Below are positions 8,047-24,068 of a stretch of 64,000 bases of DNA, in pieces. The position numbers and the translations under genes are program-made. The first letter of the stretch is position 1; every line of letters begins with the position of its first letter. This stretch comes from Micromonospora thermarum (GTDB lineage: Bacteria; Actinomycetota; Actinomycetes; Mycobacteriales; Micromonosporaceae). The notes below the pieces were generated by a model that was given only the letters and a program-made list of their open reading frames with translations, made no database searches and was not told the DNA's origin. Location of the stretch: assembly GCF_012034245.1 (NCBI RefSeq), contig NZ_JAATEO010000003.1, forward strand, positions 62,001-126,000, in the 5' to 3' direction.

Positions 8047-9282
8047 GTGCGCGAGAGCTTCCGACCGGGCCGGCCCGCTCCCGCCCGCCGAGCCGGGGCA
8101 CGGGTCCTCCTGAGTGGAGCCGCCCTCCTCCTGTTCGGCACCGTCGCCGTCGCGCCCGCCCCGGCCGCGGCTGCGCCCCGCTGCGGGCCGACGGGCACGG
8201 CGGCACCCACCGAGACGCCCTGGCCGCTGCGGCGGCTGGAACCGGCGTCGGCCTGGCGCCTCTCCCGGGGCGCCGGGGTCACCGTGGCGGTCATCGACTC
8301 CGGGGTCTCGGCCACCCACCCCGCCCTGCGAGGCCAGGTCCGCGAGGGTCGCGATTTCAACAGCCTTCCCCAGCAGCAGGGCCAGTGCGACCTCGCCGGG
8401 CACGGCACGATCGTGGCGGGGATCATCGCCGGCCGGGAGGGCACCGGAGTGCCGTTCAGCGGCATCGCGCCGCAGGCCCGGATCCTTCCGGTACGCGTAC
8501 TGCCCAACACCCGCACCACAGTGGACGAAGGTCTGCCGGGTGAGATCGCGCGGGCGATCCGCTGGGCGGTGGACAACGACGCCGACGTGGTCAACCTGTC
8601 GCTGGTCACCCTGGACCGGCCGGACCTCGCCGACGCGGTGCGGTACGCGCTGGACGAGGGCGTGGTGGTGGTCGCGGCGGCCGGCAACCGGCAGGAGAAC
8701 CAGCAGGATCTGCCCGCGTACCCGGCCGCGTACCCGGGCGTCATCGCGGTCGCCGGTGTGGACGAGCAGGGCGGCCACGTGGGCAGCTCGGTGAGCGGCG
8801 AGTACGTCGACATCGCCGCCCCGGGCCTGAACATCGTCGGCCCCGCCCCGGGCGGCGACGGGTACCTCGCCGAGCCGCAGGGCGGCACCAGCTTCGCCGC
8901 CGCGTACGTGTCCGGGGTGGTCGCGCTGGTGCGCTCCGCGTACCCCGACCTCGACCCGGCGCAGGTGGCCGACCGGCTCGCCCGTACGGCGGACAGCCCG
9001 CCCGACGGCCACAACGCCGAGGTCGGGCACGGTGTGGTCAACCCGTACCGGGCGGTGTCCGCCCTGCTGGGGCACCGGACCGACCCGCCGCCCGACGCGC
9101 TGGCCGCACCGGCCGCGCCTGCGGACCCGCTGGCCTGGCAGCGCGACGTGGCGCTCTGGGTGGCCGCCACCGGCGCGCTGGTGGCCGTGCTGCTCCTGGC
9201 CGTCAAGCCGATCCTCGATCGGGGCCGTCGGCGCGGCTGGCGGCCGGGCCGCCGCCCAGCGGACCCCACCACGACCACCTGA
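8047..9282 (+). CDS. mycP: Type VII secretion-associated serine protease, mycosin 1
   Basis: 411 residues of subtilisin-like S8 protease with signal peptide (cleavage near residue 43). The catalytic triad is Asp84 (AVIDSG), His119 (GHGTIVAG) and Ser282 (GGTSFAA). A C-terminal membrane helix (about 369-391) is followed by a short basic tail. Cys46 and Cys114 could form the mycosin disulfide. Mycosins sit on the outer face of the membrane, stabilise the ESX complex and cleave some substrates. It lies at the left end of the secretion locus, facing the leftward cassette across a shared terminator. Confidence 0.94.
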   Translation: MRESFRPGRPAPARRAGARVLLSGAALLLFGTVAVAPAPAAAAPRCGPTGTAAPTETPWPLRRLEPASAWRLSRGAGVTVAVIDSGVSATHPALRGQVREGRDFNSLPQQQGQCDLAGHGTIVAGIIAGREGTGVPFSGIAPQARILPVRVLPNTRTTVDEGLPGEIARAIRWAVDNDADVVNLSLVTLDRPDLADAVRYALDEGVVVVAAAGNRQENQQDLPAYPAAYPGVIAVAGVDEQGGHVGSSVSGEYVDIAAPGLNIVGPAPGGDGYLAEPQGGTSFAAAYVSGVVALVRSAYPDLDPAQVADRLARTADSPPDGHNAEVGHGVVNPYRAVSALLGHRTDPPPDALAAPAAPADPLAWQRDVALWVAATGALVAVLLLAVKPILDRGRRRGWRPGRRPADPTTTT

Positions 9283-9524: not shown

Positions 9525-10877
9525 TCAGCGCAGCACGCCGGGCGTGCCGCCGCCGTCCGCGCCCCAGACGTCCTCGTCCTCTTCCAGCCAGGTGTTGCGG
9601 GGGACGTCCTCGTCGCCGTACCCCGCCCCGCCGTGGCCACCCATCCCGGCGACGCCGGCGGCACCACCGCGGGCACCGGCACCCCGGCCGGCGGCACCGC
9701 CGACGCCGGCCGCGCCCGCGCCCGGCACTCCCCGGCCGGCACCCCGGCCGCCGGCGCCCCGACCGGCGCCGGCCGCGCCGCCGCCCATCATCGGCGCCAT
9801 CCCGGCACCCGCACCGAGCTTGCCGGCCGCGCCCAGCCGGCCGCCGGCACCACGGCCTCCGCCGCGACCCGCGCCGGCCATGCCGCCGCCCATCATCGGG
9901 GCCATGCCCGGGGTCACCGGGCGACCCAGCGCACCGCCGCCCGGGATCATGCCGCCGCCGGCCAGCCCCGCGCCGCCACCGGCACCGCCGCCCGCACCGA
10001 GACCGGTGGTGCCGGGCAGGCCGCCGCCGAGACCGGGCGCCGTGGCGGCGCCGGCCCCGGCCAGGCCGCTGCCGTAGTCGTCGGCGAGGCTGCCGGTGCC
10101 CGGCGTGTAGCCGCCGCCCGAGCCGTAGCCGCCGCCGGCCAGGTCGGGGTGGACGCCGGAGCCGACGCCCGGGAAGCCGGTGCCGGGCAGGCCACCCGCG
10201 CCGATCGACGGCCCGCCGCCGCCGATGCCGCCCGTGGAGGGCATCCCGCCGGCGCTCGGCGCCCCGCCGAGCCCGCCCGCGCCGCCCGGGCCGGTGCCCA
10301 GGTCCGGCGTACGCATGTCCGGCGTCGTGTCGACCTGTTGCGTGCTCGATCCCGGCATCCCCTGATCGACCGCGACGTAGTCGCCGCTGACGTCACCGTA
10401 GACGCGCGCCGCCTCCTCCGACTTGTCGTTGATCCAGTCGTAGAGGCCGGTCAACGGGTCGAGCAGACCCATGAAGTCGGGCTTCACCCGCATCTCGAAC
10501 AGCCCGGTGTCGATGACGAGCCGGCCGTTACGCGCCTCGAGGACGTCGTTGACGCAGCTCGCGGGGACCGGGAACGAGGACTGGGCGGCGGTCAGCCGGT
10601 CCGCCGCGTTCCGCAGCGACTGGACGATGCCGTCCTGGCCCTCGGCGGCCTCGACGATCTTCTCCGCCTTGGTCGCCATCCCGGTGACCTTCGTCTTGAA
10701 GGCCTCGTACGCCTCGCCCTTCCAGACCTCACCCAGATCCTTGACGTTCTTGTCCAGGCTCTCCTTGACCGCCGTCACGTTCTTCAGCAGCTGCTCCCAG
10801 AGCGAGGCGGCGGTGGCCACGTCACCCGGCCGGCCCGCCACCACCACCTGCTGGCACATCTCTTCCCAGCTCGGCAC
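9525..10877 (-). CDS. Cassette 1 large WXG-type secretion substrate, Gly-rich, TWLxEDE tail
   Basis: 450 residues. The N-terminal helical domain (about 1-175) carries the WXG turn VWKGEAYEAFKTKV at about residue 51, followed by a hairpin-like helix pair. A very Gly/Ala-rich disordered stretch spans about 185-425. The C-terminus is NTWLEEDEDVWGADGGG, then TPGVLR. The N-terminus and tail resemble the gene at 22818-24068, including AGRPGDV/AGQPGQI and WKGEAYEAF/WTGEAGQEF. No signal peptide is seen, which fits export by the ESX machine as a PPE/EspB-like substrate. It is the last gene of a leftward run, 15 bases after its partner. Confidence 0.8.
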   Translation of the reverse strand: MPSWEEMCQQVVVAGRPGDVATAASLWEQLLKNVTAVKESLDKNVKDLGEVWKGEAYEAFKTKVTGMATKAEKIVEAAEGQDGIVQSLRNAADRLTAAQSSFPVPASCVNDVLEARNGRLVIDTGLFEMRVKPDFMGLLDPLTGLYDWINDKSEEAARVYGDVSGDYVAVDQGMPGSSTQQVDTTPDMRTPDLGTGPGGAGGLGGAPSAGGMPSTGGIGGGGPSIGAGGLPGTGFPGVGSGVHPDLAGGGYGSGGGYTPGTGSLADDYGSGLAGAGAATAPGLGGGLPGTTGLGAGGGAGGGAGLAGGGMIPGGGALGRPVTPGMAPMMGGGMAGAGRGGGRGAGGRLGAAGKLGAGAGMAPMMGGGAAGAGRGAGGRGAGRGVPGAGAAGVGGAAGRGAGARGGAAGVAGMGGHGGAGYGDEDVPRNTWLEEDEDVWGADGGGTPGVLR

Positions 10878-10892
10878 CGCTCCCCCTCCCCG

Positions 10893-11453
10893 TCAGGCCT
10901 TCTGCTTGGAGGCGTCGCTGAAGACGCGCTCCATCTCGGCGGCCGACATCGCGTTGGCCCGCTCGGCCGTCTCGTAGTTCTCCTTGACCTCGCGCAGCGC
11001 GTTCGCCGCCTGGTACAGGTCCTCGGCGAGGTTACGGACGCTCTGCTGGGTGCTGGTGAAGAGCGAGGAGTGCTTCGTCGCCAGGTCCTGCGCCCTCGGG
11101 AACGTGCCGAGCGGACTGGTGCCGGTCGGCATGCCGGCGGTGGCGCTGCCGCCCATCCGGTCCTGGATCTCCACCATCTGGTACGACTGCTTGTGCAGGA
11201 AGTCGGCGTGCGACTCCAGCCACCGGATCGCCTCCTCCAGGCTGGTCGCGTCCCACTCCGTCCGCGCGCCGGCCTCGTTGGCTCCCGGCATCAGCGCCGT
11301 GGGCCGCTCCGCCCGGTTGACGTTGTCCATCGTGATGCCGTCGAGGTGCATCGTGGGCACCAACGGCGTGATGGGCACCGGAATCGGATTGTCCAGCCGG
11401 ATCTCCTCCGGCTGCTCGGCCCGGTCGACCGGTGTCGTCCGTTCCTCCGTCAT
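10893..11453 (-). CDS. Cassette 1 small helical partner ('LGTF' protein)
   Basis: 186 residues, helical, with a Pro-rich N-terminus (about 1-60). Its second half parallels the small gene at 22457-22825: SLEEAIRWL/SLEDFRRKL, PLGTFPRAQDLA/ALGTFADATDNA, and YETAERANAMSAAEM/YRTAEARNAANSADI. Each copy sits directly upstream of a large WXG-type partner, suggesting a heterodimeric substrate pair, as in EsxA/EsxB and PE/PPE. Pairing is inferred from gene order and paralogy. No known Pfam family was recognised. Confidence 0.75.
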   Translation of the reverse strand: MTEERTTPVDRAEQPEEIRLDNPIPVPITPLVPTMHLDGITMDNVNRAERPTALMPGANEAGARTEWDATSLEEAIRWLESHADFLHKQSYQMVEIQDRMGGSATAGMPTGTSPLGTFPRAQDLATKHSSLFTSTQQSVRNLAEDLYQAANALREVKENYETAERANAMSAAEMERVFSDASKQKA

Positions 11454-11484
11454 CGGTTCCTCCCCCTAGCCGACTGGATCTGAC

Positions 11485-13047
11485 TTACTGCTGGTGCCCA
11501 CCGGGTGCGGGCGGAGGTGGCGTGGGTACGCCCGGCACGCCGGACGTCGGGCCGGACGGCGCGGAACCGGGCGCGAACCCGGACTGGCCGGACGGCGGTG
11601 GATACGCCTGCCCCGGCAGCGCTCCCGGCCCGACCGGCTGCCCCGGCCCGAAGCCCGGGTGGCCCCCCTGGCCCGGCGGGAACCCCGGTTGGCCCGGCTG
11701 GCCCGGTGCTAGGCCCGACTGGCCCGGCTGGCCGGGCGCGAAGCCCGGCTGGCTGGGCGGGAAACCCGGCGGAACCGGCTGGCCGGCGCCGGGCGGCGGG
11801 AAGCCCGGTGGCCGGATACCGGGCGGGCCCGCGGGCGGCCGGCGGCGGGAGCGCCGGACCAGCACCACAACGAGAACCACGAGACCGATCGGCACGGCGA
11901 GACAGAATGCGCCGGTGATCCAGGCGCCCGGCCCCTTCTTGAACGTGATCGCCACCGCCGGCCCGTCGTCCTCGGCGACCACCACCGGACGCGTCGGGCC
12001 GGCCGAGGTGTCGGCAGTGGACGTCAGCAACGGGTTCGACCGCACCGCCGGCACCGAACGGGTGAGCGCCGCGACCGGGTCGACCGCGCCGAAGCCGTAC
12101 TGGTCGTCCCGCCCGGGCCCACCGCCGTCGCGGGCGGTGCGGATCATCCGGTTGACCACGTTGGCCGCGTCGAGATCCGGATACCGTGCCCGGACCAGAG
12201 CCGTCACGCCGGAGACGATCGCGGCGGCATCGCTGGTGCCGCTGCCGATGCCGTACCCGTTCGGCGACACCGACCGGGGTCGCGGGGAGATGATGTCCTC
12301 CATCGGCGCGGCCAGCACCGCCTCCGGGCCGTGCACGCTCTCGGCGAACGCGGCGCCGCGCTTGGTCAGGCCGGTCACGGCAATGACGCCCGGGATGTTG
12401 GCGGGGCTGTTCACCCGCGTAGCGCCCTGCTTCCGGTTGCCGGCGCTGGCCACCACGACGGCGTCCTTGTCGAGGGCGTAGCGGACGGCCTGCACCAGTC
12501 GCTCACGTTCCGGGCCGGCGGTCACCGGAAGCGGGCCCTTCTCGCCGGAGGAGACGTTGATCACGTCGGCCCCGGCGTCGGCGGCCCACCGGATTCCCTC
12601 GGCGACGTCGTCCATGTCGAACGGCCGACCCAGCGCGACCGGCAGGATCCTGGCCTCGGGTGCGATGCCGAGGTGCCGCATCTCGCCGCCCCCGCGCGAC
12701 GCGATGATGCCCGACATGGAGGTGCCGTGCGCCTTTTCCTTGTCGTCGTCACGGCGGCCGTCGGAGGCGCTGGCGTTCCCGAGGCCGGTCCCCTTGAGCA
12801 CCTGGTCGCGCAGCTCGGGGACGGTCGGGTCGACGCCGCTGTCGATCACGGCCACCGTCACGCCACGCCCCTTGGTGATCTGGTGGGCCTGCGAGATCTT
12901 GAGCGTGTCCAGGTACCACTGGAGGCCGCGGACCGTGTCGGCGGCCCGGGCCGGGGCGGGCGCGGCCAGCGGACCGGCGCCGACGGCCAGCGCCACGGCG
13001 GCGGCGGTCAGCGCCAGCAGTGGCCGGAAACGATTCCCCGTACGCAT
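11485..13047 (-). CDS. mycP: Type VII secretion-associated serine protease, mycosin 2, with long Pro/Gly tail
   Basis: 520 residues. Signal peptide (to about residue 35), S8 domain with Asp69 (AVIDSG), His107 (HGTSMSG) and Ser272 (GSGTSDAA). One membrane helix lies at about 373-397, followed by an RRSRRR stop-transfer sequence. Unlike mycosin 1, about 120 further residues of PGQPG-type repeats follow the helix; by topology these should be cytoplasmic. The gene lies downstream of the two WXG100 genes on the same strand. Having two mycosins in one ESX locus is unusual compared with mycobacteria, where each locus has one. Confidence 0.93.
   Translation of the reverse strand: MRTGNRFRPLLALTAAAVALAVGAGPLAAPAPARAADTVRGLQWYLDTLKISQAHQITKGRGVTVAVIDSGVDPTVPELRDQVLKGTGLGNASASDGRRDDDKEKAHGTSMSGIIASRGGGEMRHLGIAPEARILPVALGRPFDMDDVAEGIRWAADAGADVINVSSGEKGPLPVTAGPERERLVQAVRYALDKDAVVVASAGNRKQGATRVNSPANIPGVIAVTGLTKRGAAFAESVHGPEAVLAAPMEDIISPRPRSVSPNGYGIGSGTSDAAAIVSGVTALVRARYPDLDAANVVNRMIRTARDGGGPGRDDQYGFGAVDPVAALTRSVPAVRSNPLLTSTADTSAGPTRPVVVAEDDGPAVAITFKKGPGAWITGAFCLAVPIGLVVLVVVLVRRSRRRPPAGPPGIRPPGFPPPGAGQPVPPGFPPSQPGFAPGQPGQSGLAPGQPGQPGFPPGQGGHPGFGPGQPVGPGALPGQAYPPPSGQSGFAPGSAPSGPTSGVPGVPTPPPPAPGGHQQ
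11488..11856. repeat. Low-complexity PGQPG repeat coding for the mycosin 2 tail
   Basis: Short irregular repeats of the GGxxGGxCCCGG type encode FPPGQPGQ-like units within the mycosin 2 C-terminal tail. The copies are degenerate, so this is a coding low-complexity region and not a mobile repeat. Confidence 0.7.
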
Positions 13048-13129
13048 GACTCCCCCAGGACCACTCGGCTGCGAACATGGCGCGGCTCCGGCCCGGTCTG
13101 ACCGGACCGGAGCCGCGTCGACGTTCGGA

Positions 13130-13408
13130 TCAGCCCCACACCTTGGCGTTGCTCATCTCGGTGTTGACGTAGTTCTCGCGGGCGATGCCCACGGCGCCAC
13201 CGATCTCGTTGAGGATGCGGTTGATGTCGCGCACCGCCGAGTCCCACTGGGCCTGGTGCTGCTCGTAGGCCGCCCGGTCCTGGCCGTCCCACTGGAGCTT
13301 CGACAGCATGGAGCGCAGCGTGTCCAGCTTCTCGTCGATGGTCCGCGAGATGGTCTGCATCTGCTGGTTCGCGTTCTCGAGGACCGCGTAATCGACCTTG
13401 ATGCTCAT
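13130..13408 (-). CDS. WXG100 family secretion protein (EsxA/B-like)
   Basis: 92 residues, two predicted helices joined by the WXG turn Trp40-Asp41-Gly42. Near the C-terminus ENYVNTE fits the YxxxD/E secretion signal of ESX substrates. It lies 28 bases downstream of a second WXG100 gene, the usual tandem pair forming a four-helix heterodimer exported by EccC. This copy carries the Yxxx(D/E) signal, so it is the likelier EsxB-like partner. Confidence 0.93.
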   Translation of the reverse strand: MSIKVDYAVLENANQQMQTISRTIDEKLDTLRSMLSKLQWDGQDRAAYEQHQAQWDSAVRDINRILNEIGGAVGIARENYVNTEMSNAKVWG

Positions 13409-13436
13409 GAGTTCCTCCCCTGCTCGTCTCGTCGGA

Positions 13437-13745
13437 TCACGGGTTGAGAGCAGCGTGGAACTTGTCCAGCATCTGCTGCTGCTCTTCGTCGTTGACCTGG
13501 TGCGTCGTGCCCGACTTGTCGAGCAGGTCGGCGATGTTGTCCATCGCCGTCAGCAGCTTGGTGGTGTTGTCGTTCCAGTTCTGCATGAGCGTCTGGAACC
13601 CGGTGGACGCCTGGCCCTTCCACGCGATCGCCAGATCGTCGACCACGTTCCACAGCTTCTTCAGCTCGCCGTCGACCTCGCTGCGCGTGGACCGCACGTC
13701 ACTCGCGGCGGTATGTAGAGTCGCTGCTTCGACCTCGAACGCCAT
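13437..13745 (-). CDS. WXG100 family secretion protein (second of pair)
   Basis: 102 residues with the WXG turn Trp42-Lys43-Gly44. The C-terminus has no tyrosine, so the YxxxD/E signal is absent and the partner at 13130-13408 probably provides it. It is the first gene of the leftward esx-esx-mycP2-cassette 1 run. The 220-base spacer (13746-13965) to eccC probably contains its promoter; nothing else was recognised there. Confidence 0.93.
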   Translation of the reverse strand: MAFEVEAATLHTAASDVRSTRSEVDGELKKLWNVVDDLAIAWKGQASTGFQTLMQNWNDNTTKLLTAMDNIADLLDKSGTTHQVNDEEQQQMLDKFHAALNP

Positions 13746-13965
13746 GCTTCACACCCCTCCGTCTTCTTGTGGCGGCGGATCTGCCGCGCCCCTCCCCCGC
13801 GGCAAGGCTCACAACCCCACCGACGGACACTCCTCAGGAGACCGTAGCGGACCGACGCAACGCGGCGCAGCCCCGCCCGACCACAAATGTGACGGACGGT
13901 GATGCGTTCGTTGCTGGCGCAATAGTCCACTCCGAGACGGCATCGCCGTCCACATCGGACAGCGC

Positions 13966-16900
13966 TCAGACCGGCTCCGCCCAAGCGGTCTGGATGAGCT
14001 GCTGGCCGTCACGCCGCCGGACCAGAGTGCCGCGGCCGGGCGGCTGCGGGCTCGGCCGGAGGATGCCGAAGACCGCGCCCTCCTCCCGGTTGCCGGACAT
14101 GAGCAGACCCGGGGAGTCCAGCTCCCGGAGGCGTTGCAGCACCGGCTCGTACAGGGCCCGGGCCACGCCGCCGACCCGCCGCGTGACGATCAGGTGCAGA
14201 CCGATGTCGCGGGCCTGCGGCAGCAGCTCGTGCAGCGCGCTGAGCGGGTTGTTCCCGCCCGACGCGACCAGGTCGTAGTCGTCCACCAGGATGTAGAGGT
14301 CCGGTCCCTTCCACCAGCTGCGGTCGCGCAGCTGCGCCGTGGTGACGTCCGGCCCGGGCAGCCGGTTCGACAGCGCGCTGCGGATCGAGGCCAGCCCCTG
14401 GGCGAACACCTGGTTGGAGGGCGCGTAGTCGAGCAGGTGGTCCCCCTCGACCGCGCCGAGCAGCCCGCGCCGGTAGTCGGCGATGACCAGCCGGGCCTGG
14501 GCCGGGGTGTACCGCTTGGTGATCTGCCGGGCGATCAGCCGCAGCAGGTTCGTCTTGCCGCACTCCGCGTCGCCGAAGACCGTCAGGTGCGGCTCGTTGG
14601 CCAGGTCCAGGTAGACGGGGGCGAGTGCGGACTCGTTGACACCGATCGGCAGACCGGGCGCCGAGCGGTCGATGATCCGGGCCAGCTCCGTGACGGGCAA
14701 CCTGCGCGGCAGCAGGCGTACCTTCGGCGCCGGCCGGCCGGGCCAGGCGGCCGCGACGTGCCGGGCGAGGGCGACCGACGCCTCGGTCAGGTCCTCGATG
14801 CTCCGGCGACCGTCGACCCGCGAGACCGCGGTGAGGAAGTGCAGCTTGTCGCGGGTGAGGCCGCGGCCGGGTGAGCCGGTCGGGACGTTCGCGGCGGCCC
14901 GCCGGTCGATCTCCGACTCGTTCGGGTCGCCGAGGCGGAGTTCCAGCTTCGTGCCGAGCAGGTCCCGCATGTTGATCCGGATCTCCGCCCACCGGACGGC
15001 GGTCAGGATCACGTGTACGCCGAAGCCCAGCCCGCGGTTGGCCAGGTTCGTGATGGTCTGCTCCAGCTCCTCGTACTCCTGGCGCAGCGTGTTCCAGCCG
15101 TCGACCACGAGGAAGACGTCACCGAACGGGTCGTCGGCGAACTCACCGGCGGCCCGCCGGCGGCGGTAGCTCGCCACCGAGTCGATGCCGTGCTGGGCGA
15201 ACCGGGTCTCCCGGTCGTCCAGGACCGCCACCACCTCGGCCACGGTCCGCCGGACCGCCTCGGTGTCCCGCCGGCCGGCGACGCCGGCCGTGTGCGGCAG
15301 CCCGTCCAGGCTGCGCAGCGCGCCACCGCCGAAGTCGAGGCAGAAGAACTGCACCTCGCGGGGAGTGTGGGTCAGCGCCAGCGACGCCAGCAGCGTCCGC
15401 AGCATGGTGCTCTTGCCGCTGAGCGAGGCACCCACGATCACCACGTTGCCGCCGGCGCCGCCCAGCTCCACCAGCAACGGGTCGCGACGCTGCTCGTACG
15501 GGCGGTCCACCACGCCCACCGGGACGGTGAGCTGCCCCCGGCCCGCCCAGTTCGCCGTGCAGAGCCCGTACGTCGGGTGGGCGCTGAGCGCCGGCAGCAG
15601 CTCGCCGAGGCCCGGCGGGTCGGCCAGCGGCGGCAGCCAGACCTGGTGCGCCGGACGGCCCTGCCCGGTGATCCGGTCGATCAGCACGTCGAGCATCGCC
15701 ACGGTCTTGCCCTCGGCCGGCTGCTCCGGCTCCGGGGTGGCCGGCACCGGCACCTGCGGGTCCCGCACCGGGAGGTAGTCCACGCCGTACGGCACGATCC
15801 GCCGCTGGACCATCGCCTGGGACGCGGCGGCGGCCTGCCCCGGCGCCCGGTACGGCCCGGACACGTACGCGGCCCGGAACCGGAGCATCGTGCTGGTGTC
15901 GGTCTTCAGGTACCCGTGGCCGGGGGCGTTCGGCAGCTCGTACGCGTCCGGCACGCCGAGCACGATCCGGCTCTCCACGGCGGAGAAGGTACGCAGACCG
16001 ATCCGGTACGACAGGTGCGTGTCCAGACCGCGCAGCTTGCCCTCCTCCAGGCGCTGGCTGGCCAGCAGCAGGTGCACCCCGAGCGAGCGGCCCAGCCGGC
16101 CGATCATCACGAAGAGGTCGATGAAGTCGGGCTTCGCGGCGAGCAGCTCGCTGAACTCGTCGCAGATGATGAGCAGGCTCGGCATCGGCTCCAGCGGCTC
16201 GCCGGCCGCCCGGGCCTTCTCGTAGTCGTACCGCGAGACGTAGTTGCCGGCGGCCCGCAGCACCTCCTGCCGCCGGGTCATCTCGCCGGCGAGCGCGTCC
16301 CGCATCCGGTCGACCAGCGGCAGCTCGTCGGCCAGGTTGGTGATCACCGCGCTGGTGTGGGGCAACGCCTCCAGGGAGGCGAAGGTCGCGCCACCCTTGA
16401 AGTCGACCAGGACGAAGTTCAGCTCCTCCGAGGAGTGGGTGACCGCGAGCGCGCCGACGATCGTCCGCAGCAGCTCGCTCTTACCCGAACCGGTGGCCCC
16501 GATGACCAGGCCGTGCGGGCCCATACCCTCGTGCGCGGACTCCTTGAAGTCCAGCTCGACCACGTTTCCGTCCGGCCCGACGCCGAGCGGGATGCGCAGC
16601 CGGTCCCGGTGGCTGCGCGGCCGCCAGCTCTGCCGGACGTCCAGTGTGGCGGCGTCGCCGACGCCGAGCAGGTCGGGCAGCTCCATGCTGCGGGCCAGCG
16701 GCTCGTCGGCGGTGGTCTGCTGCTGGGAGAGCCGGAACGGCGCCAGTTGCCGGGCCAGCCCCTCGGCGGCGGAGGCGCTCAGCCGGTCGGGCGTGCCGAG
16801 CCGGGACGACGTGGTGCCGCGCACCAGCTCCAGCGAGGTGCCGTCGCCCACGTCGAGGCAGAGCAGCCAGCGGCCGGCGTCGCGCGGCACGGCGCCGGAG

Positions 16901-17928
16901 AGGTCGATGACGGTGGCACCGAGCAGCCCCGCCCCCATCAGTTGGCAGGTCGCCGAGACCTCGCCGCCGTCGATCACCACGACCAGGTGCGGCGCCGTGG
17001 TGAGGGGTTTCGCCTCCGGGGCGAAGCGGGGCCGACCGGCCAGCTCGCCGGCGAGCGACTCCTCCGCCTCGGCGAGGCTGGGGAACACCAGCCGGCGCGC
17101 GCCCGCCGCGTCGCTGCGTCCATTGTGGTGGGCGTGCGGCAGCCACTTCACCCAGTCCCAGGCTCCCTGCCGGTCCGGGGCGGCCACCACCGCGACGACC
17201 AGGTCGTCCGGCGCGTGGAAGGTCGCGAGCTGGCCGAGGGCGGCACGGGCCAGGTCCAGCACCGGCTCCCGGTCGCCGCGCAGCACCACCCGGCTGAACG
17301 AGCGCACCGACAGCGCGGTCGGCAGGTCCGGCACGGTCGAGTGGGCGCGGACGAACCGGCGCAGCGCGATCGCGCTCATCGGCTCCAGATCCTCGACCGG
17401 TTTGGTCTCGGGCGGCACGATCTCCACCGCGAGGCGCTGCGGGCCGGTGGCGATGCGGGTCTCACCGAAGTCGTCCTCGGTGATCCGCCGCTCCCACAGG
17501 CGGCGCGACGCGGCGACCGACCACAGGGCGTCCGGCTCCGGGTGGCGCCACGCCATCGCGGCCCGCTGCTGCTCGGCGGCGCGCCGGGTGCGCTTGCGCA
17601 TCTGCGCCAGGTACCGCATGTAGTCGCGGCGGTCCGCGTTGAGTTCCGCCTTGTCGTTGTTGCCGTTGCTCAGCGAGCCGATCGCCATGCCCAGCATCGA
17701 GATGCCGAACAGACCACCGGCGACGTACGTCATCATGCCGCCGCCACGCCCGGCGTAGAGGAACGCCATCGCCCCGACGCCGCAGACCATCGGCAGGATC
17801 ATCAGCAGCTGACCCATCCCGCGCGGCGTCGGCTCCGGCAGCTCCGGCGGCGACTCCAGCAGGACCTCGCCCCGCGGCAGGGCCGGGCCCGGCTGGCGTG
17901 GCGGTCGGCGGAACACCACCGTGCTCAC
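13966..17928 (-). CDS. eccC: Type VII secretion ATPase EccC (fused EccCa-EccCb)
   Basis: 1320 residues. Two membrane helices (about 39-58 and 65-86) precede three FtsK/SpoIIIE ATPase domains. Walker A motifs: GATGSGKS (about 477-484), GASLSGKS (833-840) and GDAECGKT (1119-1126). Domain 1 has a full Walker B (LLIICDE, Asp590-Glu591). Domain 2 has VVDG and domain 3 VDDY, so the catalytic Glu is missing, as is usual for the regulatory ATPase domains. It is the motor that recognises WXG100 substrates. The GTG at 17928 follows GGAGGAG; upstream sequence in frame does not look coding. Divergent from eccD across a 150-base spacer. Confidence 0.97.
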
Positions 17929-18079
17929 GGCTGTCTCCTCCCCCTGAGACGATCGCGCGGGCGGCCCGGGTCGTCGGGTGGGCATCGTACGCGCCCGCCA
18001 TCGTAGGTAATCTCCCGTGGGCGTCACGGACCCGTGCGGCGCGGGCCCGGCCGGCCGGAGGACGAGCGAGGAGGCCACT

Positions 18080-19477
18080 GTGGCGACGAAGACGGCGACC
18101 GGTGGGCTGAGCCGGATCACCATCGTGGCGCCGCGCACCCGGATGGACCTGGCGCTGCCGTCCGACGTACCCCTTGCCGACCTGCTGCCCACGCTGCTGC
18201 GCTACGCCGGCGAGGACCTGGCGGACGAGGGCGTCCGGCACGGCGGCTGGAGCCTGGCGCGGCTCGGCGGGTCGCCGCTGGACGGGGGACGGACGGCCGC
18301 GCAGCTCGGCATCCGGGACGGGGAGATCCTCTACTTCAACCCGCGCGCGTCGGCCACACCCGAGATCGTCTTCGACGACGTGGTCGACGCGGTGGCGACC
18401 GCCACCAACCAGCGTCCGGGCGCCTGGCAGGTCGGCACCACGCGCGCCTTCGCGGTGCTCTTCGCGGCGGTGGCGCTCGGCGGCGGCGCCCTGGCCGCGC
18501 TGTTCACCGGCCCACCGCAGCTTCCCGGCGCGCTGGCCGCGCTGCTCGTCGCGGTCGCCCTGCTGGTCGGCGCCGCGGTGCTGTCCCGGGCCGCCGCCGA
18601 CAGCGCCACCGGGTCGGCGCTCGCGCTGGCCGGCCTCGGGTACGCGGCCGTCGGCGGCCTCCTGCTGCTCGCCGGCGACCGTACACTGACCGAGCTGGCC
18701 GCCCCGCACGTGCTGCTCGCCACCACCGCGGTCGTGGTCGGCGCGGCCGTGGCGGCGTTGGCCGTCGGTGACCGGCTGCCGGTCTTCTTCGGCGCGGTCG
18801 CGATCGGCGCGGCCACCGCGGTCGGCGCGCTGCTCTGCCTCGCGTTCGGCATCGGCCCGGCGGCTGCCGCGGCGGTCGTGGCCGCCGTGGCGTTCGGGGC
18901 CGTCCCGGCGCTGCCCATGGTCGCGTACCGGCTGGCCCGGCTGCCCGTCCCGTCCATCCCCACCGGCCCGGAGGACCTGAAGACCGACAGCGAGTCGGTG
19001 GACGGGCGGCGGGTGCTCCAGCTGAGCGAACGCGCCGACGAGTTCCTGACCGGTCTGGTGTGGACGGTCTCGTTGCTGGTGCTGGGCGCCGAGCTGGTGC
19101 TCGCGCTGGACGGGCGGCTGCCGGCCGTCCTGCTCTGCCTCGTCCTGGCCCTGCTCTCGCTGCTGCGGGCCCGGCCGTTCCTCGGCCGGGCGCAGCGGAC
19201 GCCGGTGCTGTTCGCCGGGACCGCCGGGCTCGGCCTGGCGGCCGCGGCCGCCTTCGCGGGCGGTTCCATGGCGCTGCGTCTCGGTCTCATCCTCGGCGGT
19301 GCGCTGCTCGCCGCCGTGGCGAGCCTGATCTACGGCCTCACCGTGGCCGGCAAGCGGATCTCCCCCGTGTGGGGTCGGCTGCTCGACATCGTGGAGATCC
19401 TGCTCATCATCGCGCTGGTGCCGCTGGCCGTCTGGGTCGTCGGCCTCTACGGCTGGATCGTGAACCTCCGCCCCTGA
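18080..19477 (+). CDS. eccD: Type VII secretion membrane channel protein EccD
   Basis: 465 residues. A ubiquitin-like N-terminal domain (about 10-90, [20 protein letters not shown] at its start) is followed by eleven or so membrane helices. A cytoplasmic loop lies in the middle. EccD dimers form the core of the ESX membrane pore. The GTG at 18080 is chosen for the GGAGG five bases upstream; an earlier ATG in frame would add an unlikely leader. It is convergent with eccE and divergent from eccC. Confidence 0.95.
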
Positions 19478-19534
19478 CCCGTGGGGCGCGGCCGGCGCAG
19501 GCCGCCCTCCACCGTGGTGTCGGCGTTGGGCCGC

Positions 19535-19552
19535 CGGCCAGGCACCTGGCCG
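19535..19552. terminator. Possible terminator between convergent eccD and eccE
   Basis: CGGCCAGG and CCTGGCCG form an 8-base-pair GC hairpin (effective loop about four bases) in the 88-base gap between the two stop codons. There is no U-tract. Confidence 0.4.
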
Positions 19553-19565
19553 ACCCTGCCGCGAG

Positions 19566-20750
19566 TCAGGCGGTCGGGGCGAGGGTCTCGACGCCGGCCG
19601 CCACCGGTGCGGTCGCGTAGACGCCGGGCGCGTGCTGGCCGTCCACCGGTCGGGACGGCGCGCCGCACTTGCGGGCGACGTCCCGGACGACCTTCACCAG
19701 CGCCTCGACGTGGTTGTCGAGCGCCGCGACGCGCAGCAGCGGCGCCGCCAACCGGCCGCCCGGCAGCACCCCGACGGCGAGCGTGTGCGACGGTGCGGAC
19801 GTCGCGGTGACCGTGTCCACCAGCGTGGCGAACGACGCCTCGGCGCGGGGCCGGAGGGTGAGGCAGCGCTGCGTCCAGCCGCCGCCGCGCAGCCCGGTCC
19901 AGGTCTCGGTGGGCGGGGCGGGCGCCAGGTCCAGCCCGGCCGCCGACACCACCGCGGCGCGCAGTTCGTCGCGGCCGAGCGGGCGGTGGGCGAGGCCGGC
20001 GGCGGTCAGCGCCTTCCCCAGCCGGCCGACACCCGCCGACAGCGTGCGGTGCACCCCGGGCATCCCGCCACCGCGGCTGAACGACTCCACCCGGGCGTCG
20101 CGCACCGACAGCCGTAGCGCCACCCAGACCGTACGGTGGGCGGCCGGCGGCGCGCCGGGTGCCGGGTACCAGACCAGGGTGTGCGACACCACCTGGGCCC
20201 GGGTCACCGGGCCGCTGAACTCGGTGAGGACGCGGACCGCCCGGTCCACCACCGCGGCCTCGACGGGGCCGGGCCCGGGCCGGCCCTGCACCGCCACGGC
20301 GGCGAACCAGCCCTGGGCGTCCTGCCCGACACCCAGCCGGGTGCCCCGGTCGGTCAGCTCCACGACGGTCAGCTCGGGTGCCAGCGGGGCCAGCCGTGGG
20401 TCGACCGCGGTGCCCGCCTTGACGCTGCTCCGCGCCCGCTCGGCGCGTCGGCGCAGGCGCCGGCGCAGCATCAGGTCCTCGTACCACCAGCGGCCGCCCC
20501 GGCGGGCAAGCACCGCGACGACGACAAGGGCGGCGAGCACGGCGACGGGCGCGGTGAGCCAGGTCGGCCCGCCCAGCGCCGCCGCGACCGCGAGGGCGCA
20601 CAGCTCCAGGATGACGAGCTGCCCCACCGCGACGGGCCCGAGCCGGCCCCGTCGCGGAGCCGGGCCGGCCGGGGCGGTGGCCGGGTGCTGGGCCCGGGCC
20701 GGTGCGCCGGTCTGCGGGGGGCGGCCCGGCGGCGCCTGAACCTGCGTCAT
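19566..20750 (-). CDS. eccE: Type VII secretion protein EccE
   Basis: 394 residues. A Pro/Ala-rich N-terminus is followed by two membrane helices (about 40-60 and 66-83), then a soluble domain of about 300 residues. The size, the double helix and the position with eccB/C/D identify EccE, the peripheral ESX membrane component. The ATG at 20750 is preferred because AGGAAGG lies upstream; a GTG at 20792 would add 14 residues. Sequence conservation in EccE is weak, so the call leans on architecture and context. Confidence 0.85.
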   Translation of the reverse strand: MTQVQAPPGRPPQTGAPARAQHPATAPAGPAPRRGRLGPVAVGQLVILELCALAVAAALGGPTWLTAPVAVLAALVVVAVLARRGGRWWYEDLMLRRRLRRRAERARSSVKAGTAVDPRLAPLAPELTVVELTDRGTRLGVGQDAQGWFAAVAVQGRPGPGPVEAAVVDRAVRVLTEFSGPVTRAQVVSHTLVWYPAPGAPPAAHRTVWVALRLSVRDARVESFSRGGGMPGVHRTLSAGVGRLGKALTAAGLAHRPLGRDELRAAVVSAAGLDLAPAPPTETWTGLRGGGWTQRCLTLRPRAEASFATLVDTVTATSAPSHTLAVGVLPGGRLAAPLLRVAALDNHVEALVKVVRDVARKCGAPSRPVDGQHAPGVYATAPVAAGVETLAPTA

Positions 20751-20901
20751 CGGTGGCAGTCCTTCCTGGACGGACCGCGGCGGCGTCGTCACCGGCGCGG
20801 GCGGCGGTCCCGGTGGCCCGCCGACGGCCCCTTATCGTAGGGAAGCCCGCGGCGCCGACACGGACCGATCGTCGCGGACCCACCCCCGCCGGAGGTTAGC
20901 C

Positions 20902-22359
20902 ATGCGGACCCGCCGCGACCAGGTGCAGGCGTACCGCTTCGTCACCCGTCGGATCGTCTCGGCGCTGCTGTCGGGCGACCCGGAGACGAACAACCTGCCG
21001 ATGCGGCGGCTCGGCATGGCGGTCTTCGGCAGCGTGATCGCCGCGGCGGTGGTGCTCGGCGGCGTCGGCGCGTACGGGCAGCTCACCGGCAACACGGCCC
21101 CGCTGGAGCAGAACACGCTGGTGATCGAGCGGGAGACCGGCGCGACGTACGTCTTCCTGGACGGCCAGCTGCACCCCACGCTCAACTACGCCTCGGCCCG
21201 CCTGATTCTCGGCGAGGCCGACCCCGCGATCCGCACGATGTCGCAGGCGTCGATCCGGGACCGGCCGCGCGGCCGTACCGTCGGCATCGTCGGCGCCCCC
21301 GACGCCCTGCCGGACCGGAAGTCCCTGACCGGACTGCCCTGGTCGGTCTGCGACGTGCCGGACCCGGCCGGCGCCGGCCGCTCGACCACCCGCCTGGTGA
21401 TCGACCGGACGCTGCCCGGCGGCACGCCGCTCGGCGACCGGGCGGTGCTGGTCCAGGTCGACGGCCAACGCCACCTGCTCACCGGCGACGCCCGGCTGCA
21501 GGTGCAGGGCGGTGACCCGGCGATCGCCGCCCTGCGGATGGCCGGGGCGCCCACGCTCACCGTCGGCCAGCAGTTGCTCAACGCGGTGCCCGCCGGCCCG
21601 ACCCTGCGCGAGCCGTCCGTCCCCGGGGACGACGAGCCGGGTCAGGTCCGCGTCGGCGGCTCCGAGGCCCGGATCGGTCAGGTCTTCCGGGCGGCGGGCC
21701 GGCACTACGTCCTGACCCGGGACGGGCTGGCCTCGATCGGCGAGGTGAGTGCTCTCCTGCTGCTGCGGGCCGGCGGGACAGTGACCGACATCACTCCGGA
21801 CGAGGCGGGCCGCCTGCTGACCGATCAGCGGGTGGAGGCGGAGGGCATCCCGCAGACCCTGCCCGCGCTGCACCCCGTCGCGCCGGGCCGGTCGGTGCTC
21901 TGCGCGACGTACCGTGCGGGCGCGGACGGCGGTCCGCCCACCACCACGATCGAGGTGTTCGACCGGGCCCCGGCCGAGCTGTCCGCCGGACGGGAGGGCC
22001 CGCAGCCGGTCCGGCAGTCCTCCCGGGACGGTGTGCGCACGGCCGAGGCCGTGCTGCTGCCCGGCGGCAAGGGCGTGCTGGTCCAGGCCGCGACCGGCTC
22101 CGGGGAGAGCGGCGCGCCCGCGCCCGGTGCGACCGTGCACCTGGTCACCCCACAGGGCCTGCGGCACCCGCTCGGCCCCGGCGCGCAGACCGCGCTCGGG
22201 TACGAGGGAGTGACGCCGCTGGTCGTGCCGGCCTCGCTGCTGGCGCTCATCCCCACCGGCCCCACCCTCGACCGGGAGGACGCGCTGACGCGGTACGCGC
22301 CGGCCGACCCGTCCCCGCCCGCCGCACCGGCTTCCACCGGTTTGCCGGCTGCCGAGTGA
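20902..22359 (+). CDS. eccB: Type VII secretion protein EccB
   Basis: 485 residues, normal length. The short basic N-terminus has the EccB hallmark RDQVQAYRFVTRRIVSAL. One membrane helix (about 39-62) precedes a large extracytoplasmic domain with a Cys pair (SVCDVP and VLCATY). It forms the outer part of the ESX core complex. GCCGGAGG lies just upstream of the ATG. Its promoter is in the 151-base spacer shared with eccE. Cassette 2 follows on the same strand. Confidence 0.95.
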   Translation: MRTRRDQVQAYRFVTRRIVSALLSGDPETNNLPMRRLGMAVFGSVIAAAVVLGGVGAYGQLTGNTAPLEQNTLVIERETGATYVFLDGQLHPTLNYASARLILGEADPAIRTMSQASIRDRPRGRTVGIVGAPDALPDRKSLTGLPWSVCDVPDPAGAGRSTTRLVIDRTLPGGTPLGDRAVLVQVDGQRHLLTGDARLQVQGGDPAIAALRMAGAPTLTVGQQLLNAVPAGPTLREPSVPGDDEPGQVRVGGSEARIGQVFRAAGRHYVLTRDGLASIGEVSALLLLRAGGTVTDITPDEAGRLLTDQRVEAEGIPQTLPALHPVAPGRSVLCATYRAGADGGPPTTTIEVFDRAPAELSAGREGPQPVRQSSRDGVRTAEAVLLPGGKGVLVQAATGSGESGAPAPGATVHLVTPQGLRHPLGPGAQTALGYEGVTPLVVPASLLALIPTGPTLDREDALTRYAPADPSPPAAPASTGLPAAE

Positions 22360-22456
22360 CGGGATCGGGCCGCCGGTGGGTCGCCCGGTGTCGCATCGGT
22401 CGACTAACCTGAGCGTCGCCAACGGTTATCGACTCACGACGTACGGGGATGCTGCC

Positions 22457-22825
22457 ATGACCGGGCGCACGACAGTCGACCTGATGTCCCTTGAGGACTT
22501 CCGCCGGAAGCTCGCCGACCGGCTGGCCGAGGCGGAGCGGGCGGTGCGGAAGCTCGACACCGAGATGCAGTGCCGGCCGCCGGCGCTGGGCACGTTCGCC
22601 GACGCGACCGACAACGCCCGGCGATACAGCGACATCCACCTGGCCTACTCGCAGCACGTCGCCCGGCTGCGCACCGCCGTCGAGGCGGCGCAGACCGCCA
22701 CCGCCACCATCCTGGCCCGCTACCGCACGGCCGAGGCGCGCAACGCCGCCAACTCCGCCGACATCGCCGCCGCCCTCGCCGGGGTCGACGAGGCGATCAC
22801 CCGGGAGGAGCAGCCGCGTGTCTGA
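22457..22825 (+). CDS. Cassette 2 small helical partner ('LGTF' protein)
   Basis: 122 residues, almost entirely helical. It shares the SLED, LGTF and YRTAEARNAANSADI blocks with the small gene at 10893-11453 but lacks that protein's Pro-rich N-terminus. The stop codon overlaps the start of the next gene by 8 bases, so the two are translationally coupled. The ATG at 22457 has GGGGA 8 bases upstream. It is inferred to be the partner of the large WXG-type protein that follows. Confidence 0.8.
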   Translation: MTGRTTVDLMSLEDFRRKLADRLAEAERAVRKLDTEMQCRPPALGTFADATDNARRYSDIHLAYSQHVARLRTAVEAAQTATATILARYRTAEARNAANSADIAAALAGVDEAITREEQPRV

Positions 22826-24068
22826 GTACACCCAGCGCTACCAGGCCGAGAGCCACCAGGCGCTCTACGACGGTGTGATGGCGGGTCAGCCCGGTCAGAT
22901 CGAGGGCGTTGCGGCACAGTGGACGGCGCTGAAGGGCATCGTGGACGACCTCCGCCGCGACCTCAAGGGCGACCTGGAGAAGCTGGCCAACACGTGGACG
23001 GGCGAGGCGGGCCAGGAGTTCCAGCGCCGGCTGGGCTTCGTCGCCACGTACGCCGAGTCGCTGGGCGAGGGCATGGCCGACGTGAGCCGCGGGCTGACCC
23101 TGATGGCCGACCACCTGCGGACCGCCAAGGAGCAGGCGGAGAGCCCGGCCGAGACCGACGACCACGACCAGGCGATGTCCGGCGCGGCCAAGGGCGCGGT
23201 CTTCGGTGTGCCCGGCATGGTCGTCGGCGGCCTGCTCGGCCACCAGCAGGACAAGGCCGAGCAGGAGAAGGCGCACCAGCGGATGGTCAACGTGGTCTCG
23301 GAGCTGGCCGCCGGCTACGACCTGTCCGCGTACGGGCGGCTGGTGCCCCCGCCGCCCCCACCACCGGACACGCCCGGCTCGGTCAACCGTGACTCCACGG
23401 CGCCGCGCAGTGGCCCGGCGGTCGGCACGCCGACCGCCAGCGAGCTCTCCGCGCGCACGGGCGGGGCGACGGCGTCGACGCCCGACCGGGCGTCGGGCGG
23501 GCCCACGTCCGGCACCGGGGGCACCGCGACCCCGACCGGGGGCGGCGCCCCGGGCACCGGGACGCTCGGCGCCGCACCCGTCGGCGGCACCTCGCTCGCC
23601 GGAGCCGATCCGCTGCTCGGCGGTGCGCTGGCCGGCGGCGTCGCCGGCCTGGCCGCACTGGGCCGGGGCGGTGGTGCGACGGCGACCCCGGGCACCGGGC
23701 CCGGCCTGACGTTCGGCACGCCGGGCGGCACCCCGGCCGGCGGAATCGTCGGCACCGGCGCGCCGGACAGCCGGTCGGCGACCGGGATCGGGCGCAGCGC
23801 CGACGGCCGCCGCGGCGAGGGCTCCGGCCGGGACGCCGCCACCCGCCAGGGCACGGCCGCCAGCCGCGTGCCGGGTGACCGGGCGGTCGGCGGCATCGGG
23901 CGTACGGACGCGGGCCGCGCGGCCGCCGCCGGGACGCGCCCGGGCCTGCTCGGTGCCGGCCACGGAAGCGACGACGAGCCGACCGACGGCCGGCTGACCT
24001 GGCTGACCGAGGACGAGATGGTCTGGCGGGACGGCCCGGAGGGCGCACCGCCGGTGCTCGGCAACTGA
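22818..24068 (+). CDS. Cassette 2 large WXG-type secretion substrate, Pro/Gly-rich, TWLxEDE tail
   Basis: 416 residues. The helical N-terminal domain has the WXG turn NTWTGEAGQEFQRRL near residue 62. A Gly-rich segment (AAKGAVFGVPGMVVGGLLG) and a second helix follow. A PPPPPPPD stretch and a Gly/Thr/Ala-rich linker lead to the C-terminal tail LTWLTEDEMVWRDGPEG, then APPVLGN, which matches the tail of the cassette 1 protein. The GTG at 22818 overlaps the upstream stop and is preceded by GGAGGAG. No signal peptide is present. Probable ESX substrate; function unknown. Confidence 0.82.
   Translation: MSEYTQRYQAESHQALYDGVMAGQPGQIEGVAAQWTALKGIVDDLRRDLKGDLEKLANTWTGEAGQEFQRRLGFVATYAESLGEGMADVSRGLTLMADHLRTAKEQAESPAETDDHDQAMSGAAKGAVFGVPGMVVGGLLGHQQDKAEQEKAHQRMVNVVSELAAGYDLSAYGRLVPPPPPPPDTPGSVNRDSTAPRSGPAVGTPTASELSARTGGATASTPDRASGGPTSGTGGTATPTGGGAPGTGTLGAAPVGGTSLAGADPLLGGALAGGVAGLAALGRGGGATATPGTGPGLTFGTPGGTPAGGIVGTGAPDSRSATGIGRSADGRRGEGSGRDAATRQGTAASRVPGDRAVGGIGRTDAGRAAAAGTRPGLLGAGHGSDDEPTDGRLTWLTEDEMVWRDGPEGAPPVLGN

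Follow-up and report, generated by a model that had tools for sequence, protein, structure and literature searches.

A type VII secretion locus of Micromonospora thermarum carries two small two-gene cassettes, each of which probably encodes a heterodimeric substrate of the PE/PPE type for an ESX-4-like secretion system. The locus lies in a stretch of 64,000 nucleotides (contig C45, 62001-126000, of a genome of 6.17 Mb), hereafter the window. According to this reading, to which we assign a probability of about 0.7, the small protein of each cassette would be an EsxA/PE-like hairpin with a YxxxD/E motif and the large one would bear a PPE-like domain with a W-x-G motif, the couple being exported by EccBCDE with the contribution of a docking tail and the action of a mycosin. 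An earlier reading made from the letters alone (the sequence-only reading) had already located the four open reading frames (ORFs), and its coordinates and strands proved correct, as did the order of a small gene followed by a large gene in both cassettes, which are here called class M (mycosin side) and class B (eccB side):

9525..10877, minus strand: large1, class M PPE-like protein, with a WxG N-domain, a Gly-rich linker and an acidic W tail
10893..11453, minus strand: small1, class M EsxA/PE-like helical hairpin protein, without WxG and with an N-terminal extension of ~60 amino acids
22457..22825, plus strand: small2, class B helical hairpin protein, without WxG
22818..24068, plus strand: large2, class B PPE-like protein, whose first 8 bases overlap the end of small2
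10962..10976, minus strand: YxxxE export motif of small1 (YETAE)
22721..22735, plus strand: YxxxE export motif of small2 (YRTAE)
10716..10724, minus strand: WxG of large1 (WKG)
22995..23003, plus strand: WxG of large2 (WTG)
23181..23243, plus strand: Gly-zipper-like hydrophobic stretch of large2, between the PPE helices
9528..9614, minus strand: conserved C-terminal tail of large1
23976..24065, plus strand: conserved C-terminal tail of large2 (WLxEDxxVW...PPVLG)

The sequence blocks that had suggested a common origin of the two pairs are all present, namely SLE(E/D), LGTF and Y-TAE in the small proteins, and AG(R/Q)PG, WKGEA/WTGEA and a common tail in the large ones. Similarity between the large proteins is detected by BLASTP (30% identity over 97 amino acids, E 9e-10 as a single comparison), and a search of the whole genome with large2 at E <= 0.001 recovered itself and large1 alone, the latter with E 5.4e-6. 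The small proteins showed no similarity to each other by BLASTP (E 2.5); profile searches of the genome linked them reciprocally (6.4e-4 from small2 to small1, 4.8e-4 from small1 to small2), and an hhalign comparison between the families of small1 and small2, of 50 and 23 rows, reached 98.4%, with a score of 88 over 110 columns, where LGTF is aligned with LGTF and YxxxE with YxxxE. The same families compared with the EsxA family of the locus gave scores of 30.6 and 30.3 (59% and 41%), and with EsxB 16.4 and 19.1 (1.4% and 2.2%), which argues that the small proteins form a separate family, closer to EsxA than to EsxB. A lack of profile similarity, named in the sequence-only reading as one of the results that would undo it, was not observed, both the small pair and the large pair being related at this level.

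The comparison with PPE proteins comes from the N-terminal region of the large protein. In the model of large2, the mean predicted local distance difference test (pLDDT) score is above 90 in every ten-residue block between residues 11 and 110, another helix spans residues 137-171, and the remainder is mostly disordered. The six best matches of this N-domain among solved structures are chains of PE8-PPE15, PE25-PPE41 (four entries) and PE5-PPE4, with Z values of 12.5-13.5 over 158-172 amino acids, followed by BAR domains (10.8) and EspB (9.9). Because helical bundles may reach a Z of ~13 without kinship, as the tool itself warns, the consistent top rank and the coverage of the whole domain weigh more than the Z values, and the model, which is that of a monomer, predicts a PPE-domain fold of ~175 amino acids in the large protein. 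With Pfam PPE (PF00823, cut-off 26 bits) large1 scored 18.1 bits and large2 gave no match; among 68 large proteins, this family was matched at E <= 0.01 by 17 (best 2.8e-6), WXG100 by 43 and WXG100_2 by 26. As for WXG100 (PF06013, cut-off 27.3 bits), large2 scored 27.5 bits and large1 27.1, with no match for small1 and small2. Pro-Pro-Glu and Pro-Glu motifs were not found near the N-termini of the window proteins. Duplicated cassettes of presumed heterodimers, analogous to PE/PPE, are thus still the best-supported interpretation, as first proposed. The accompanying words, 'not obviously homologous', were too cautious for the large protein, because its N-domain models as a complete PPE domain and a quarter of its relatives (the 17 of 68) match Pfam PPE; no PE or PPE cut-off is reached all the same, and a better phrase would be that the fold is shared, the signal in sequence is weak and the family cut-offs are missed. 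A Gly-rich hydrophobic stretch (like GxPGxxxGGxxGH) was seen by eye between the PPE helices in 10 of 14 class B rows shown and in none of 9 of class M, and Pfam Gly-zipper_Omp was matched by 6 of the 68 large proteins. The position of this stretch presumably corresponds to the EspG-binding tip of PPE proteins, and in class B it may mark a different chaperone or membrane step.

For the small proteins, no Pfam or NCBIfam family scored above its cut-off with small1 or small2, and Pfam PE gave no match at E <= 1 with either of them, nor was it among the 25 of 93 families listed for 53 relatives. Weak matches among those listed for these relatives comprised Pfam WXG100 (8 relatives, best 6.5e-4), EspC (4, best 0.029) and NCBIfam WXG100_ESAT6 (19, best 0.0013), in scans that contain many chance coiled-coil matches. 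Among solved structures matched along the full hairpin, an ESAT-6-like protein comes first (E 5.6e-4), and two unrelated chains outrank it through partial or repetitive matches. An AlphaFold2 model of small2 (mean pLDDT 84) predicts a hairpin formed by helices 9-35 and 48-92 and, after it, a third helix (100-118). Two other identities for the small protein were discarded: a YbaB/EspL-like protein, for which there was no match in the small proteins of the window or among the same 25 of 93 families, and membership of EspC (PF10824, cut-off 23.5 bits), where weak matches stayed below the cut-off. The only Pfam EspC match of the genome at E <= 0.001 (G000:C65:22089-22382, or L143 9790-10131) is distant from the ESX locus, scores also above the WXG100 cut-off and near that of PE, and has no adjoining large gene within 14.7 kb. 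A warning on the coiled-coil profile of the small protein, which gives false matches outside a type VII context, comes from L151 (6269-11656), where it matched at 4e-16 a very long frame whose end resembles a response-regulator domain.

Both halves of a bipartite export signal are widely conserved. In 97 aligned pairs, the small proteins keep the Tyr in 95 and an Asp/Glu four residues on in 96, with WxG in a single one, and the large proteins keep the Trp in 95, followed at the third place by G (77) or S (19). A passage of PMC3935865 describes YxxxD/E as part of the signal of type VII secretion systems (T7SS) and, for PE/PPE pairs, a section of PMC11217815 places this signal on the PE partner and EspG binding at the tip of the bundle. 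The pairing of the genes was followed in the window and 80 regions, 54 of them (L063-L116) chosen for a match to the small protein and 26 (L117-L142) hand-picked at eccB places without such a match, taken among the matches listed, so that counts of pairing and location mostly describe loci possessing a pair and not all T7SS loci. The large gene was found directly downstream of 96 of 101 small genes, with 60 bases or less from the small stop to the large domain in 83 of the 96 (median 8). None of 8624 ORFs was matched by both profiles as a fused small-large gene would be. By profile, 7 of the 26 hand-picked loci held a pair, next to eccB in 2 of them, and 19 did not.

Put together in a working model, the small protein would be an EsxA/PE-like helical hairpin that lost its WxG and carries the YxxxD/E export motif, and the large one would join a PPE-like helical domain with W-x-G, through a disordered linker rich in Gly and Pro, to a conserved acidic tail that contains tryptophan. 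The hairpins of both partners would pack as a four-helix bundle placing YxxxE beside WxG, a bipartite signal that EccC would read, and the folded pair would be exported via EccBCDE in the absence of EspG. The tail would work as a docking element and not as an enzyme, on the model of PPE68, and the long-tailed mycosin adjoining class M would act on or with that cassette.

Relatives of small2 were found in 59 out of 150 genomes of the family and those of small1 in 32 (some being cross-class matches), compared with EccB in 149, and therefore the cassettes mark a subset of T7SS loci. All the 25 named loci found with small2 belong to Micromonospora (62-79% identical), and M. lupini Lupac 08 has a small2 relative at L212. 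Among 396 genomes of the phylum, where the samples have genomes in common, both among themselves and with that of the family, 11 had a profile match at E <= 0.001, a figure that includes the own genome and several unconvincing cases; a search of plasmids with large2 gave no match. Under a distance rule, 45 of the 96 pairs are beside eccB, 29 more beside a mycosin and 22 beside neither, and 24 loci combine a pair at eccB with at least one more. Homologues spread widely away from ESX genes, the other outcome that had been set against the proposal, did not appear: 74 of the 96 pairs adjoin eccB or a mycosin, with the qualification that in seven regions (L092, L096, L099, L104, L106, L115 and L116) class M pairs adjoin a mycosin with no ecc gene in the 20 kb taken. 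Among them, L092, L096, L099, L104 and L106 show two class M cassettes with a mycosin in between, and class B is represented elsewhere in the same genomes by a cassette at an eccB locus.

Trees were built for 97 small proteins and 97 large N-domains, a set in which the L135 pair was dropped, two Streptomyces-like pairs were added, and the 21 rows beside neither gene were left unlabelled. In both trees a single branch splits the labelled eccB-side and mycosin-side pairs, none of 500 label shuffles being as low. With few columns and long branches throughout, the support for this split was 98/89 and 100% of bootstrap trees for the large proteins, and 47/42 and 44% for the small ones, whose unrooted tree is weak because of those columns and branches and because the small proteins of L120, L126, L127 and L137 fall on the eccB-side half of the tree as drawn. 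In either tree the pairs of L146 and L147, with their long branches, fall on the mycosin side. At these two places and at L221 the order mycosin-small-large-mycosin recurs, in one genus from another family of the same class; its gene order resembles, we assume, that of Streptomyces, and the genus is probably Streptomyces itself. Other genera have orthologues of each cassette, of class B and of class M, in the corresponding position, and one branch splits the classes, so that the duplication predates the genera and the two classes are ancient.

The large proteins terminate in a linker and then in W-L-x-E-D-x-x-V-W...P-x-V-L/I, a tail whose core is present in 71 of 96 (67 of 94 with a stricter pattern). 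A tail profile of 30 positions found in the own genome just the two large proteins up to E 1, and in 296 phylum genomes nine places in 5 genomes (own included), restricted to this genus or to the Streptomyces-like one. All seven places outside the own genome are in T7SS surroundings. The one at L146 is beside two mycosins, and the tail gene of L221, situated between mycosins and behind a small gene, matches the large profile at 2e-10. The other carriers, which are two genes of L217 and those of L218, L219 and L220, are diverged T7SS proteins of 594-1216 amino acids with an extra N-terminal domain. In L217 and L218 there is an N-terminal domain of their own and a degenerate WxG-like hairpin (by eye), with a small-profile gene just upstream (7e-5 each); L219 (1200 amino acids) has a weak match to the large profile (2e-4) and L220 (1216) has none, both showing WKGEA ~220-230 residues in. 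Because these carriers have diverged from the PPE-like proteins, the tail marks a wider set of T7SS large proteins. The idea of a tail appended to unrelated N-termini was dropped, since whole genes show the extra N-terminal domain and then WxG-like hairpins.

Concerning its function, the last ten, acidic residues of mycobacterial PPE68 are needed as a docking element for the co-secretion of EspE (PMC9765416), and by analogy this is the best functional precedent for what the tail of the large proteins may do. A bolder proposal, which we put forward tentatively and hold to be rather doubtful, is that the tail would serve as a common C-terminal address code for a class of substrates so far unrecognised, independent of EspG and belonging to non-mycobacterial actinomycetes. 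It would be carried by the PPE-like large proteins of both cassettes and by the diverged T7SS large proteins with their extra N-terminal domain and degenerate WxG hairpin. A single receptor, be it EccC, the long-tailed mycosin or some other substrate, would recognise it and thereby couple the export of several cargoes, and the acidic tail of PPE68 would be the functional counterpart. Some tail-bearing ORFs were found unpaired. Those at L090 (1015-2064), L101 (11359-12423), L107 (2499-3557) and L111 (9016-10143) immediately precede a small-large pair in the same orientation, and may represent a third cassette gene there; others occur at L088 (1251-2708), L093 (8738-9808) and L109 (15100-16296).

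The secretion core between the cassettes is an ESX-4-like type VII core. The genes follow the order mycosin 2 (+), large1 (-), small1 (-), mycosin 1 (-), esxA-like (-), esxB-like (-), eccC (-), eccD (+), eccE-like (-), eccB (+), small2 (+) and large2 (+), and the GC content at third codon positions (GC3) of the four cassette ORFs, 0.92-0.96, is comparable to that of eccB and eccD. Besides the cassettes, the features are:

8047..9282, plus strand: mycosin 2, short-tailed, convergent with large1 (TIGR03921, 333 bits)
11485..13047, minus strand: mycosin 1, directly upstream of small1 (TIGR03921, 285 bits)
13130..13408, minus strand: EsxA-like WXG100 protein with YxxxE
13437..13745, minus strand: EsxB-like WXG100 protein
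13966..18192, minus strand: EccC ATPase (TIGR03924, 989 bits; TIGR03925, 898 bits)
18080..19477, plus strand: EccD (TIGR03920, 225.6 bits), start approximate, ORF open from 18017
19566..20792, minus strand: EccE-like protein (TIGR03923, 70.8 bits, below the cut-off of 108), GC3 0.94
20902..22359, plus strand: EccB (PF05108, 349.5 bits)

The cassettes do flank the core on opposite strands, as had been noticed, but cassette 1 is not at the outer edge of the locus: mycosin 2 lies farther out, and the cassette sits between two mycosins, both with all three catalytic motifs. A second eccB locus of the same genome (L118, G000:C40:39614-40978) showed no cassette in the 20 kb taken. Behind its transmembrane segment, mycosin 1 carries a Pro/Gly/Gln-rich stretch of 123 amino acids. 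In 14 mycosins directly upstream of a pair, the equivalent stretch behind the membrane segment had a median of 80.5 residues with a Pro/Gly/Gln fraction of 0.65, compared with 24 residues and 0.30 in 67 other mycosins. Moreover, among loci of the same genus with a class B pair, a long-tailed mycosin was present in 5 of 5 with class M and in 0 of 8 without it; L121, of the same genus and with no class B, has neither class M nor a long-tailed mycosin. These counts suggest a link between class M and the long-tailed mycosin. In a passage of PMC5082899, MycP1 is reported to cut EspB, its activity being dispensable for secretion.

Several observations weigh against exported PE/PPE-type pairs with tail docking and mycosin action. 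The structural matches of small2 are generic helical hairpins, with PE25 among them (root mean square deviation 1.9, Z 7.8-8.1), in fold lists where the absence of a family does not exclude it. By profile comparison with solved structures, the large N-domain comes closer to EsxA (2e-7) than to PPE41/PPE4 (0.0056 to 0.009). EspG (PF14011) was not found in the genome, where the best E was 0.112, below the cut-off, and mean-field direct coupling analysis of 97 pairs (effective number 70) yielded only apparent gap artefacts in termini and loops. With regard to the tail, 25 of the 96 large proteins lack its core in the last 75 amino acids, some of these ORFs being cut by the end of the region, and a search for it gave nothing in the 8 genomes listed for family f2, taken here for mycobacteria, so that a kinship with the PPE68 tail is unsupported by sequence. 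As to the mycosins, L120, of the same genus and with no class B, has class M without a long-tailed mycosin, and in a table of 65 mycosin loci both occur in 19, class M alone in 16, the long-tailed mycosin alone in 4 and neither in 26 (Fisher p 7e-4, uncorrected for relatedness, with 14 unlabelled class M rows placed by reading the large tree). Finally, in M. marinum an active-site mutation of MycP1 left the surface processing of PPE68 unchanged (PMC9765416), which speaks against a simple processing by the mycosin.

Some of these facts can be accommodated by other explanations. Given that no EspG match rises above cut-off in the genome, some partner may be needed, and the small protein could be a cytosolic chaperone or targeting partner, like EspG and some Lap proteins of type VIIb systems (T7SSb), with the large protein alone being exported, perhaps as a WXG100-type homodimer; in sequence its N-domain indeed comes closest to EsxA proteins, and the top match among them bears 'homodimeric' in its title. 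We regard this role as unlikely, as the small proteins model as a hairpin, carry the YxxxD/E at the frequencies indicated above, and pair with a large gene. Alternatively, the cassettes could be accessory parts of the machine, retained at the membrane for gating or assembly and not cargo, class B serving EccB and class M the mycosin. The 74 of 96 pairs adjoining eccB or a mycosin, the persistence of class M by a mycosin in the seven regions without ecc genes, the Gly-zipper stretch of class B and the requirement of M. marinum PPE68 for the export of other substrates (PMC9765416) would agree with such a role, which we nevertheless judge improbable: both halves of the bipartite export signal are kept, and many eccB loci have no pair, such as the 19 of 26 loci picked at places without a small match.

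A part of PMC3482391 lists WXG-bearing polymorphic toxins of actinobacteria, and toxin-immunity or other effector modules had to be considered. This was rejected as very improbable, since large2 is predicted to be disordered beyond residue ~175 and shares its tail with most relatives, with no catalytic domain to be seen; no Pfam or NCBIfam toxin domain occurs in the lists seen for the window proteins and their relatives, and the C-termini are conserved instead of polymorphic. A recent local duplication within this strain, which could be suspected from the same gene order and the related sequences, is hardly credible and was rejected by the trees of small and large proteins, both split by one branch, with orthologues of each class occupying the corresponding position in other genera. 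Heterodimeric substrates of the PE/PPE type are, in our opinion, the explanation to be preferred for both cassettes.

Among known systems, the PE/PPE heterodimers (PE25-PPE41, PE8-PPE15, PE5-PPE4, and PE35-PPE68 in function) resemble the cassettes in the YxxxD/E of the small partner and the WxG of the large one, the adjacent genes, the PPE fold of the large N-domain, the low-complexity C-terminal region and the T7SS context, and PPE68 also ends in a conserved acidic tail. They differ in that the window proteins reach no PPE or PE cut-off and do not start with Pro-Pro-Glu or Pro-Glu, no EspG was found in the genome, and the tail of the large proteins is of a different, tryptophan-bearing kind; the host, unlike mycobacteria, is not known to have a mycomembrane. 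A small partner paired with a large one in a T7SS is also the case of EspC/EspA and EspF/EspE (PF10824, PF18879), whose gene order in mycobacteria is large then small, but searches of the window proteins gave no match to them at E <= 1; weak PF10824 matches occurred in 4 of 53 small relatives, and EspA_EspE is matched by 1 of 68 large proteins (0.0041). EspF is the predicted partner of EspE (PMC9765416). EspB of ESX-1 shares the fold of the PPE half, its chain residues ~125-283 matching large2 (Z 9.9), as well as the mycosin link through the MycP1 cut reported in that passage of PMC5082899, but it keeps the PE and PPE halves in one chain where the window cassettes have two genes. The WXG100 proteins (EsxA/EsxB) belong to the same superfamily, and large2 barely passes PF06013, whereas large1 misses the cut-off, the small proteins have no match, and size, linker and tail are different. 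LXG-Lap pairs of T7SSb combine, according to a section of PMC11217815, a helical small partner, in some cases without WxG, and a large partner with a helical domain; they are from Bacillota, with toxin C-termini, and are set apart here by description and not by sequence comparison, no LXG family being listed in general Pfam scans of the window proteins and the large proteins.

Altogether, the cassettes are of the PE/PPE kind by their anatomy, but a place within PE/PPE itself is not claimed for them, since the window proteins score below those cut-offs and lack the motifs behind the name, and EspG was looked for in the genome without success. In the part of PMC4791881 that deals with them, ESX clusters of actinomycetes without mycolic acids are ESX-4, and pe/ppe genes are named for ESX-4EVOL and mycobacterial clusters. 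If ESX-4 clusters already carry pairs with a PPE fold and a PE-like partner, PPE-type substrates may predate both EspG and the mycomembrane, and substrate co-dependence would become open to study in soil bacteria that are harmless. A class of substrates thought to be mycobacterial seems to be older and wider.

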